The translations under genes were made by a program, and so were the position numbers. A stretch of DNA of 47,693 bases from a virus. The notes under the pieces were generated by a model, which worked only from the letters and a program-made list of their open reading frames with translations, ran no database searches and was not told where the DNA came from. The stretch's first letter is position 1. Each line of letters begins with the position of its first letter. The stretch spans positions 1 through 47,693 of IMG/VR virus record IMGVR_UViG_3300032193_000397; one strand, written 5' to 3'. Of this stretch, positions 10,189 through 14,100 are shown piece after piece.

Positions 10189-10383
10189 ATGAGACCAGAA
10201 ACACGTAAATCAATGGAAATGCTTTTCACTGCAAAGTGGAACTTGCCAAAAGCAGCAAAACATGCTAACCTTACTAACAAGGAGATGAAAATAACCTTCA
10301 ATGAGTATTGTGCTTTTCATCCACCAACTTGGCAATTAGATGACACTACTGAATTACTATCAAATCCCATCACAAATTCCTAA
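10189..10383 (+). CDS. Small helix-turn-helix-like hypothetical protein
   Basis: A 64-residue basic protein beginning MRPETRKSMEML. The middle (WNLPKAAKHANLTNKEMKITF) reads as two short helices with a turn and could be a minimal helix-turn-helix, followed by YCAFHPPTW. I recall similar short proteins in other cyanophages but no assigned function. It sits 53 bases after cpeT in an A-rich leader with AAAGG about 10 bases before the start, and its last 44 bases overlap the start of the oxygenase gene in another frame. Confidence 0.6.
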   Translation: MRPETRKSMEMLFTAKWNLPKAAKHANLTNKEMKITFNEYCAFHPPTWQLDDTTELLSNPITNS

Positions 10384-10903
10384 AATCATTTGTGATGAAA
10401 TTATCAAACAGTATCAAGATGATTTAACTGACGCTGAAGTTGGTGATACAATTGAAACTAAAAGAGTAGATGCAAAACTAAGGTTGTCTAATGTAACTTG
10501 GATTAACAATGATAATTGGATTGCTGGAATGATGTCGCATTTTGTGTTAAGTGCGAATAAACATTATTTTCGTTTTGATATTGACGGATATAGAAAAGAA
10601 ATTCAATTTGCACGATATGGTAAAGGTGATTTCTATACCTGGCACATAGATTCAGATACTGAAATTTTATCTGAAGATTTCACTAGAAAATTAAGTGTTG
10701 TAATGTGCTTATCATCAAAAGATGACTATGAAGGTGGTGAATTTGAACTTTTTTATCCAGCATCCCAATTTAAACATTCCTTTAAACTTGATTATGGTGA
10801 TGTAGTCATATTTCCATCAATCATACAACACAGAGTTAAAAAGGTAAAATCTGGAGAAAGATTCTCTTTAGTTGGTTGGATGGGAGGACCACCATTCAAA
10901 TAA
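10340..10903 (+). CDS. 2OG-Fe(II) oxygenase (prolyl-4-hydroxylase-like)
   Basis: A 187-residue single-domain protein. The double-stranded beta-helix signature is complete: H102-x-D104 (WHIDSD), distal H164 (IQHRV) and 2-oxoglutarate-binding R174 in SGERFSLVGW; YEGGEFELF and DYGDVVIFPS are the expected intervening strands. This resembles PiuC/P4H-type enzymes, which hydroxylate protein or small-molecule substrates using O2, Fe(II) and 2OG. The ATG at 10340 overlaps the previous gene; no better start lies downstream. It is the first of eight such genes in the window and lies apart from the main clusters, just before the tRNAs. Confidence 0.85.
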   Translation: MTLLNYYQIPSQIPKIICDEIIKQYQDDLTDAEVGDTIETKRVDAKLRLSNVTWINNDNWIAGMMSHFVLSANKHYFRFDIDGYRKEIQFARYGKGDFYTWHIDSDTEILSEDFTRKLSVVMCLSSKDDYEGGEFELFYPASQFKHSFKLDYGDVVIFPSIIQHRVKKVKSGERFSLVGWMGGPPFK

Positions 10904-10910
10904 CACATTT

Positions 10911-10998
10911 GCAGGTGAGACTAGGTAGTCAGAGATGTTTTATAAACATTTTGCACCAGATTAGTGCCTTTGAGATGGTTCAATTCCATCCACCTGTA
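10911..10998 (+). tRNA. tRNA-like element, class II shape, apparent anticodon UAU, atypical D arm
   Basis: The acceptor arms are GCAGGTG (10911-10917) and CACCTGT (10991-10997), with a G-U at the end. A good T arm (GATGG, TTCAATT, CCATC at 10974-10990) and an anticodon arm (GATGT/ACATT, loop TTTATAA, anticodon TAT at 10941-10943) are present. There is a long variable arm with a GCAC/GTGC stem. The D region is only 16 bases with a GAC/GTC stem, shorter than normal. UAU would read AUA (Ile), but a long variable arm is not expected for tRNA-Ile, so identity is uncertain. No CCA is encoded. It could be a degenerate or divergent tRNA. Confidence 0.5.
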
Positions 10999-11002
10999 CT
11001 TT

Positions 11003-11087
11003 GCGAGTATGGCGGAATCGGTAGACGCACCAGACTTAAAATCTGTTGACCATTACGGTCGTGGGAGTTCAAGTCTCCCTACTCGCA
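11003..11087 (+). tRNA. tRNA-Leu (anticodon UAA)
   Basis: An 85-base class II tRNA. Acceptor GCGAGTA pairs with TACTCGC, discriminator A at 11087. The D arm is GCG/CGC around a GAATCGGTAGA-type loop; the anticodon loop is CTTAAAA with TAA at 11037-11039. The variable arm has a GACC/GGTC stem, and the T arm is GGGAG, TTCAAGT, CTCCC. CCA is not encoded. It would serve UUA codons, which are frequent in this AT-rich phage. Confidence 0.95.
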
Positions 11088-11097
11088 CTATAATTAT

Positions 11098-11121
11098 ATT
11101 CCTAAATAGACCTATAGGAAT
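11098..11121 (+). promoter_or_regulatory. Candidate late promoter CTAAATA inside an inverted repeat
   Basis: CTAAATA lies at 11102-11108, 28 bases before the 1,853-residue structural gene. It overlaps the left arm of a 7-bp inverted repeat (ATTCCTA 11098-11104, TAGGAAT 11115-11121). The hairpin is too weak and lacks a T-run to be a convincing terminator for the tRNAs. Confidence 0.4.
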
Positions 11122-11136
11122 TTAACGCTTAATAAG

Positions 11137-14100
11137 ATGGGTCTTAGTCGTCTGGATAATTTTCTAAAGAGCACCAAGGGTGAGATTCTTTATGTAGATC
11201 CCTCAAGTCTCGATTCTACGGATAGTATCGAGAATAAAGGTAACTCTTTAGCAAGACCGTTTAAAACAATTCAAAGAGCACTGCTAGAGGCAGCTCGTTT
11301 CTCCTATCAAGCAGGAGCAAATAATGATAGATTTGGTAGAACTACCATTCTACTCTATCCTGGTGAGCACATAGTAGATAATAGACCAGGATGGATACCA
11401 ATTCAAGATCAAGTGGCAAATACCTACAGACTTAGGTCTGGTACTACTTCCGATGACTTCCCACCACTTGATGTCAACAGCAATTTTGACCTAGACAGCC
11501 CTAATAACGCACTATACAAAATTAATAGTGTTCATGGTGGTGTTATCATTCCTAGAGGTACATCACTTGTAGGTCTTGACCTTAGAAAGACCAAAATTAT
11601 TCCTAAGTATGTTCCCAATCCAGAAAACGACCAAATTGAAAGATCGGCCATTTTCCGTCTAACTGGTGCTTGTTATATGTGGCAGTTCTCCATCTTTGAT
11701 GGTGATCAAACTGGAACTGTATATAAAGACTATACAACTAACTCATTTGTTCCTAACTTCTCACACCATAAACTTACTTGTTTTGAATATGCTGATGGTG
11801 TAAATCCAGTATCTATTAATGATGACTTCTTAGTCTATAATGATGAAGATACTGACCTTGATATGTACTATCAGAAGGTTGGTTTTGCATATGGCAAACC
11901 TTCTGGAAGAGAAGTTTCTCCTGACTATCCTTCTAGCGTTTTAGACATTGAACCAAAGGTTGATGAATACCGTATTGTTGGTTCTACTGGTGCTGAAGTT
12001 GGTATTACCAGCATCAAGTCAGGTGACGGACTTATTACATCAACAGAAATTACAGTTACATTAGAGAATGAAGTAGAAGGTCTTGACGTAAATACCCCGA
12101 TTCGTATTGAAGGTATTCCTGATGCAGGATATGATGGTCAGTATGCTGTATTTGAAGTTCTATCAACCACAGAGATTAAGTATCAAGTATCTGTTCCACC
12201 AGATAATCCACTACCAGCATCAACTTCTGGTGCAACACTGAATATCTCTGTTGACACTGTTACCTCTGCATCACCATATATCTTTAACATCTCTCTGAGA
12301 TCTGTATTTGGTATGTGTGGTCTCCATGCTGATGGTAACAAGGCAACTGGATTTAAATCCATGGTCCTAGCTCAATTTACGGGTATTGGACTTCAGAAGG
12401 ATGATAATGCCTTTGTGAAGTATAATACAACCACTGGATTGTATGAAGGAACTCTTGCTGCAGGTAATGAGAATATTCACACAGATTCTCAAGCAAGATT
12501 CAAACCATCATATGAGAACCATCATATTAAGTGTAGTAACAATTCACTTTTACAGATCGTTTCAGTCTTCGCAATTGGTTTCAACAATCACTTCCTATTA
12601 GAGTCTGGTGGTGATGCTTCTATCACAAACTCAAACTCTAACTTTGGTGCTAAAGCTCTTGTTTCTAGAGGTTTCAGACCTGATGCATTCCCAAGAGATG
12701 ACATTGGTTACATTTCACATGTAATTTCACCAAAAGAAATTGAATCTGCAGAGGGAGGCATTGAATTCTTAGGTATTGATGTTGGCGTTTCTACTGCTGT
12801 AGGTATTGCAACAACCAGTAAACTTTTCTTATATGACGAAAAGAACTTTGATATTCCACCATCAACAGTCATTGATGGATATCGTATTGGTTCTAACAAA
12901 AATGAAGCACTAAAAGTTCTTCTTGCAAAAGGAAACGAAATTACAACTTATCACTCTAAAGTTGTAATGCCTAGCACTGAAGGTACTTCAAATGAAAAGA
13001 TATCTGAAAAAATCCATAAAGTTAAACAGTCTCTAGGTTTAAATGTTATTTCATCAAATACACTTACTTTAGATGAAAATCACACTTTCCTAAATGGTGA
13101 AACAGTTAGAGTTATCAGTGAAAATGGTGGATTACCTGATGGTGTTGAAGAAGAAAGAGTATATTATGTAATTACAACCGCAATTTCTCCTAATCCAGCA
13201 CTCACTTCAAAGCAAATAAAACTTGCTGCGACTCTAAATGATGCTAACAATGATGTTCCTATCAATATCAATAATACTGGTGGTATTCTTAGTATTGTAA
13301 GTAGAGTATCCGATAAATCTGCTGGAGATCTTGGACACCCAATTCAATGGGATGCAACACAAACTCAGTGGTATATCAATGTATCTACTGGCAGCACTGA
13401 TGCAAGTATCTACAATCAATTGTATACAAGAGGTGTTGCGGAACTGGGTGAAACAACTCCAAGAACATTTGTACTCAGAAAACCAACTGATAGAAATGTT
13501 GAAGGAAGCATCTATAAGGTTCGTTATGTTCTACCAAAGGATTCTCCAACATTAGGAAGACCTCCTGTTGATGGATTTATTTTACAAGAATCAAATAATG
13601 TTGATGGTGCCACTAATGCTGAAGTTGAAAAGTATCTGAATTTTGATAGTCAAACATTATCAAATTCAACTGAGTTTAGAAACTTTAGATTCATTGCAGA
13701 TGCTGATTGGTCTTCTCTCGATAATAAGGCAACTATTAGAACAGAACTTCCACACAATTTGACGGCAGGTTCTCAAATAGAAATCACTAATGTCATTAGT
13801 GGATTCAATACTACAGGAAAAGCAAATCAAGGATTTAATGGAACATTTACTGTTGATAGTATTGAGAGTAGAAAACAGTTTAAAGTTAGTGTTGCAACAA
13901 ATCCTGGTGACTTTACAAGTGATACTTCTGTTCGTAATCAAAGTCTTCCAAAATTCAAGAAGAAAAAGCACGAAGGAACTTTCGTTGTTTACAAGTCGGA
14001 AGAAATTCAAAGATATGTACAAAATGAGCAAGATGGTGTCTATCATCTAACTGTTGTCAATTCATCAAATACACCAAATGTTTCACCATTTACTGGTGTA

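Follow-up and report, generated by a model that had tools for sequence, protein, structure and literature searches.

Does a tRNA-like element that combines the isoleucine anticodon UAU with a long variable arm and a reduced D region encode a working tRNA, and, if so, which codon would it serve? This question is raised by an 88-nt element at positions 10911-10998 of a 47.7-kb virus record (hereafter the window, that is, the whole stretch of DNA analyzed), whose best named match is Synechococcus phage S-SCSM1 (83.7% identity over 7.2 kb). The earlier note on this DNA had proposed three readings of the element: a decayed tRNA, a novel decoding variant or a tRNA mimic. The features of the locus are the following, with the evidence for each in brackets:

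10340..10903, + strand: 2OG-Fe(II) oxygenase gene, 7 nt upstream of the element, used as marker of the gene slot (gene analysis)
10911..10998, + strand: whole compact-D, long-variable-arm tRNA-Ile(UAU) gene (fold, covariation, covariance-model match)
10911..10917, + strand: acceptor stem, 5' side, with G1 in a G.U pair with position 72 (fold and covariation)
10919..10930, + strand: compact D arm, GACT / AGGT loop / AGTC, whose stem covaries (fold and family comparison)
10932..10938, + strand: anticodon helix, 5' side, with the five usual pairs and two more (fold and covariation)
10939..10945, + strand: anticodon loop UUUAUAA, with the anticodon UAU at 10941-10943 (sequence, fold, alignment)
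10946..10952, + strand: anticodon helix, 3' side (fold and covariation)
10953..10967, + strand: variable hairpin GCAC / CAGATTA / GTGC, with conserved loop (alignment and covariation)
10968..10973, + strand: conserved linker CTTTGA joining the variable and T arms (alignment)
10974..10990, + strand: T arm GATGG / TTCAATT / CCATC (fold and covariation)
10991..10997, + strand: acceptor stem, 3' side (fold and covariation)
10998..10998, + strand: discriminator A73, with CCA not encoded in the window copy (sequence; A in 115/115 family members)
11003..11088, + strand: ordinary tRNA-Leu(UAA), 4 nt downstream of the element (ARAGORN, Rfam tRNA model)

Structure of the element and of its family

The element of the window is real and not decayed. 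It folds at -27.6 kcal/mol (z = -3.97), and none of 200 shuffled sequences folded as well. The fold comprises a 7-bp acceptor stem, a 5-bp T stem, the anticodon stem and a 4-bp variable stem, confirming the good acceptor, T and anticodon arms that the earlier note had described. Its coordinates and the rest of its anatomy (UAU, long variable arm, reduced D region) were also correct, the D region being a 4-bp stem with a 4-nt AGGT loop. Scans of positions 10850-11200 for promoters and terminators found none.

Standard tools did not recognize the element. ARAGORN found only the tRNA-Leu(UAA) at 11003-11088 in the window, as did the Rfam tRNA model even with E-values up to 10, and Rfam at a loose threshold returned nothing for the element beyond weak matches to unrelated families. 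At the gathering score of RF00005 (29 bits), the copies in the window and in four other loci (L035, L036, L045 and L183) were missed, together with the relative found in S-CRM01 (locus L228). ARAGORN named 55 of the 66 rows of our family alignment (A2, see below), each as tRNA-Ile(tat), with the window copy among the 11 missed. Since the standard covariance model misses the compact-D core, lists of phage tRNAs drawn from such models are likely incomplete.

We compared these results with a family covariance model built from 31 sequences, from which the window and its near twins (L009, L010 and L051) were excluded. The window copy scored 105.8 bits (E = 1.6e-29) with no broken pair, and the neighboring tRNA-Leu scored 31.1 bits. 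Across 40 other loci, scores ranged from 101 to 108 bits for copies of the D-motif type, several of which are in the model by construction, from 37 to 55 bits for other complete UAU tRNAs with a long variable arm, and up to 38.2 bits for the remaining tRNAs. Two relatives outside the model, from Sinorhizobium phage Phosso and locus L291, reached 86.7 and 69.8 bits, respectively. Covariance models had been proposed in the earlier note as a check on the element: the Rfam tRNA model misses it and the independent family model finds it.

The element belongs to a family united by its anticodon (UAU) and by its layout: the acceptor/T branch is 7/5, the D stem has 4 bp and closes on an NGGT loop of 4 nt, the anticodon helix has 7 pairs, and the loop of the variable arm is almost always CAGATTA. 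BLAST detected it in the phages S-SKS1 (84%) and S-SRM01 (81%), with no annotated feature beneath; ARAGORN calls both copies tRNA-Ile(tat). Scanning IMG/VR with the D-arm motif yielded at least 120 stretches. The collected loci contain 124 occurrences of this motif, 117 of them with at least 6 of 7 acceptor pairs, and one of these (L081) is unrelated. After removal of duplicates, the D-motif set consisted of 65 distinct sequences, including one Nostoc copy; L042, L044, L048 and L150 (contig end), L098 and L120 (truncated copies) and L082 and L081 (unrelated) were excluded. The anticodon was not required in the search for the D motif, and among 65 unique sequences, L081 still included, TTATA was present in 64, the exception being the unrelated L081.

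In alignment A2 (66 rows, 65 distinct sequences), standard pairs occupied 99.6% of 1782 cells, and changes on both sides were observed in 15 pairs (266 cells). None of 500 shuffles reached these values of pairing or of two-sided change, and slid controls were 41-45% paired. The D stem is invariant in A2 because it served as search key. We therefore analyzed two further scans in which the letters of the D stem were free except for one excluded base, and in which GGT, the UAU loop and the variable loop were fixed (61 and 41 stretches). Among the 73 distinct contexts obtained, 67 presented a D stem of 4 bp with NGGT as its loop and six did not. All of these stems differed from GACT/AGTC: GAAC/GTTC was found 35 times, GTGT/ACAC 29 times, and GCAT/ATGC, GCAC/GTGC and GAAT/ATTC once each. 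The maintenance of a pairing D stem in differing letters indicates that the compact D arm is real.

A structural scan of all collected loci, requiring NGGT and the UAU loop, defined 115 distinct members, the window included. A73 was found in all 115, G1.U72 in 106 and an encoded CCA in 65; some of the loci had been selected for the hairpin or the D arm, such that these counts are not natural frequencies. The G1.U72 pair was likewise found in 63 of the 65 distinct D-motif sequences. We rejected this pair as a special mark of the family, as it also occurs in other phage tRNAs, such as Glu(ttc) (42/66, in loci chosen in the same way). The cloverleaf is that of a tRNA: the acceptor, D, anticodon and T helices show compensatory changes, and a standard T loop, A73 and a 7-nt anticodon loop with U33 are present. 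In 7/115 members the T loop begins with ATCG instead of TTCR while the stems are intact (ATCGTTA, ATCGTAA and ATCGATA; e.g., L067:1179-1266). UAU followed by A37 is the pattern of the family, and some tRNAs that carry the same variable hairpin on a normal D arm body present G37 (L309, L310, L312 and L313). For the compact-D architecture, our literature search, which covered mostly titles and the openings of abstracts and had most subscription journals outside its scope, returned no recognizable description of such a phage tRNA.

Gene slot and distribution

The oxygenase gene upstream of the element allowed us to compare the same slot across relatives. In S-SCSM1, whose flanking DNA aligns closely with the window on both sides, the slot contains an ordinary class I tRNA-Ile(UAU) (176535-176606). 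Two other loci, L013 and L014, were found through their oxygenase proteins (77 and 67% identical). The tRNA-Ile(UAU) in their slot combines a normal D arm with a long variable arm, and the GCACCAGATTAGTGC hairpin of this arm is the one present in the window. The slot is thus occupied by three different tRNA bodies that all have the UAU anticodon, which points to AUA decoding as the function that has been kept. The novel decoding variant was the best of the three readings offered in the earlier note. In addition, three of ten loci inspected (L045, L053 and L037) harbor arrays of 22 to 27 tRNAs each that include the compact tRNA.

The same tRNA design recurs in many environmental viruses, and the window is itself from a cyanobacterial virus. 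Isolates with the element include S-SKS1, S-SRM01 and Sinorhizobium phage Phosso, as well as S-CRM01 with another D arm. In a collection of genomes from 84,980 species, the D motif matched 71 stretches, of which only two were family members, both in Nostoc. Searching 386 genomes of the same phylum as Nostoc gave a single match, the Nostoc genome already known. Across 53 genomes of the genus, the full score (104 bits) was reached in two, and two others scored at the level of ordinary tRNAs (30.8 and 26.7 bits). The Nostoc copy had no match in the plasmid collection searched. On this evidence, the compact tRNA is mainly a phage tRNA.

Several loci present particular arrangements. S-CRM01 contains a full long-variable-arm tRNA-Ile(UAU) with the other D arm, followed by a 5'-truncated family remnant (L228:504-650); the remnant (609-646) matches positions 43-80 of the family model with 26.3 bits. 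At L098:4411-4530, the compact tRNA ends after the anticodon arm and a tRNA-Met(cat) follows directly; the sequence in L120 is identical. An HNH endonuclease ORF (L183:544-990) lies near the Nostoc copy. Motifs resembling HNH were enriched near the compact tRNA, being found within 1 kb of 13/181 compact-D places as against 4/462 control windows; from this comparison, made with control windows, we claim no homing.

Probable decoding of AUA and the variable hairpin

In most bacteria, AUA is read by a CAU tRNA modified with lysidine, and a plain UAU anticodon risks misreading AUG. We consider it likely that the element functions as a phage tRNA-Ile and reads AUA through UAU, given the conservation of the tRNA, the compensatory changes in its helices, the conserved anticodon and A73 and the UAU tRNAs in the same slot of relatives. 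With a UAU anticodon reading AUA, the lysidine route through tRNA-Ile(CAU) would be unneeded. The compact tRNA would be cut from a joint transcript with the neighboring tRNA-Leu, would receive its CCA from a host enzyme in the case of the window copy, would be charged by the host IleRS and would serve AUA codons in phage genes. Its D loop of 4 nt contains GG and is similar to that of tRNA-Sec; this suggests that formation of the elbow is still possible, the GG probably still docking on the T loop as in tRNA-Sec.

Passages of PMC9976931 name the discriminator and the anticodon as the identity signals of tRNA-Ile, and both signals, A73 and UAU, are present in the element. The reference list of the same review includes work on the recognition of UAU by the IleRS of lactic acid bacteria. 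We searched 12 records that carry the compact or a related long-variable-arm UAU tRNA, the window's own record not being among them, and found no TilS (PF01171) and no class I synthetase (PF00133) above cut-off, with matches below cut-off in two records for TilS and in one for the synthetase. In such carriers, charging would therefore depend on the host, and the host IleRS may not accept U34. To our knowledge, a long variable arm is no known feature of bacterial tRNA-Ile, and this arm could block IleRS or invite LeuRS.

AUA represents 140 of the 813 isoleucine codons (17%) in 24 ORFs of the window. We analyzed the residues aligned with AUA codons in related phages. In S-SRM01, 67 AUA codons have an aligned position in both S-SM2 and S-SSM5, and at 22 of these sites the two relatives agree without using AUA: 15 encode Ile, two Leu, two Val and one each Glu, Thr and Met. 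When the window was compared with S-SCSM1, shared AUA codons excluded (84 sites), Ile (25), Val (19) and Leu (17) led; relative to S-SM2, Ile was found at 7/22 sites. These alignments support AUA being read as isoleucine in the carrier S-SRM01 and, more weakly, in the window. Regarding codon usage in other phages, a table for cyanophage S-CREM1 gives AUA values of 16.6 and 2.5, in columns that we take as phage and host, and TAT seems to be a type of phage tRNA absent from the host (passages of PMC9964418). Some phages use CAU with lysidine instead, according to passages of PMC13191261.

We further analyzed the variable hairpin. Its loop played no part in the choice of the 65 distinct D-motif sequences, of which 61 present CAGATTA, three CCGATTA and one CAGATCA, while the variable stem changes with compensation. 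The 115 members, partly chosen for the hairpin, give 100, 14 and 1, respectively. Scanning for GCACCAGATTAGTGC and the T loop with the anticodon left free yielded 67 stretches representing 50 distinct 110-nt contexts, and the anticodon of the best-paired loop was UAU in all 50. Tested on UAU tRNAs with a normal D arm, sought regardless of their variable arm, C[A/C]GAT[T/C]A was found in 43 of 106 occurrences among the matches listed, up to 15 further loci being left out of this count. Other normal-D UAU tRNAs (L330, L346, L348, L362, L320, L382 and L400) present differing variable loops with a common GAT core; these variants could reveal which bases of the loop matter. The class II tRNAs of the same loci (Leu, Ser and Tyr) presented no comparable common loop word: the commonest 7-mer was found in 10 of 59 distinct genes for Ser (tga) and 9 of 45 for Leu (tag), as against 93 of 104 for Ile(tat), whose genes had in part been selected for it; counts from these loci are not natural frequencies.

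The conserved variable hairpin probably serves as the binding site of a protein. It is possible, if doubtful, that the CAGATTA hairpin is an identity tag for a dedicated partner, such as a wobble-modifying enzyme or a host factor, such that UAU reads AUA without misreading AUG, and that this tag moved between, or was kept in, different tRNA bodies, the compact-D body being a new tRNA architecture. Such a tag would represent a further bacterial solution for AUA, in addition to lysidine and an adapted IleRS. UAU tRNAs occur on many phage contigs, and a good share of them have a hairpin that our scan found with no other anticodon (50/50). This poses a testable question: what binds the hairpin, and by which means is misreading avoided?

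Alternatively, the tRNA might read AUA while its odd body was selected for escaping host defenses that cut tRNAs, an account that is compatible with our main reading but that we hold to be unlikely. Phage tRNAs evading tRNA-targeting defenses have been reported (PMC10264068 and PMC11555353), and ordinary, normal-D and compact bodies do occur in one slot. A word search of PMC10264068, as far as the searched text extends, gave no mention of isoleucine, UAU or variable. The presence of the same CAGATTA loop in different bodies, however, argues for a binder and not only for escape. We also know of no defense cutting tRNA-Ile in these hosts, which counts against this account.

It seems improbable that the element is a tRNA-shaped regulatory or decoy RNA acting outside translation, as proposed for the allo-tRNA(UAU) of soil bacteria. 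Its core is unusual, and allo-tRNA(UAU) is described as unusable for translation in E. coli in passages of PMC7609411. However, other tRNA-Ile(UAU) genes occupy the same slot in relatives, members of the family lie inside long tRNA arrays and the branch is 7/5 and not 8/4. The tRNA mimic of the earlier note is not supported: the anticodon loop, A73 and the T loop are tRNA-like, CCA is encoded in 65/115 members of our partly selected loci and relatives have other tRNA-Ile(UAU) genes at this place.

Charging with another amino acid, which would render AUA ambiguous, is less probable still. A long variable arm together with A73 would suit leucine, nematode nev-tRNA-Ile(UAU) takes Leu in vitro (passages of PMC4300185) and Leu occupies 17 of the 84 sites at which the window was compared with S-SCSM1. 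The AUA sites of S-SRM01 are nevertheless mostly Ile (15/22, against two Leu), and AUA is used freely in the window. Finally, a tRNA gene decaying on its way out would agree with the failure of ARAGORN and Rfam to detect the element and with the broken family copies in L098, in L120 and beside the S-CRM01 gene, but it is scarcely credible in view of compensatory helix changes, with the anticodon and A73 conserved in 115 distinct sequences, stems that covary over 65 distinct sequences, a D stem in six matching versions and a window copy with no broken pair relative to the family model.

Comparison with known tRNAs

Among the closest counterparts of the element are other phage tRNAs. The class I tRNA-Ile(UAU) of S-SCSM1 (176535-176606) shares its slot, UAU, G1.U72 and A73 but presents a short variable loop and a normal D arm, and scores 61.7 bits with Rfam. 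The tRNA-Ile(UAU) at L013:3564-3656 shares the slot, UAU and the GCACCAGATTAGTGC hairpin and differs by its normal D arm (61.3 bits with Rfam). The tRNA-Ile(tat) of Sinorhizobium phage Phosso (PV764938, 383344-383436), annotated as tRNA-Ile, closely matches the element in its compact layout and has an identical variable loop (family-model score of 86.7 bits), whereas, as read by eye, it presents a 5-nt D loop, C1-G72 and an encoded CCA.

The nematode nev-tRNA-Ile(UAU) is also a tRNA-Ile(UAU) with a variable arm; it differs in being eukaryotic, in its tRNA-Leu-like variable arm and in being charged with Leu in vitro (passages of PMC4300185). Allo-tRNA(UAU) shares the anticodon, departs from the usual cloverleaf and is common in soil and sediment metagenomes, but its acceptor branch is 8/4, whereas covariation makes that of the compact family 7/5, which sets the two apart on the description of allo-tRNA given in passages of PMC7609411. 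We rejected an allo-tRNA assignment (8/4 or 9/3): an eighth acceptor pair is possible in only 7/115 members, and the first pair of the T stem is kept in 115/115 and changed on both sides in 47.

The anticodon of tRNA-Sec is UCA. The anticodon here is UAU, and we rejected an assignment to tRNA-Sec on this ground and for the absence of a 6-bp D stem, as a fifth pair would join position 8 (A in 88, G in 27) with position 21 (A in 115/115). The likeness to tRNA-Sec resides in the 4-base D loop and the long variable arm (passages of PMC7609411). Relative to the 6-bp D stem and 13-bp acceptor branch of bacterial tRNA-Sec, however, the compact tRNA combines a 4-bp D stem with a 7/5 branch and UAU.
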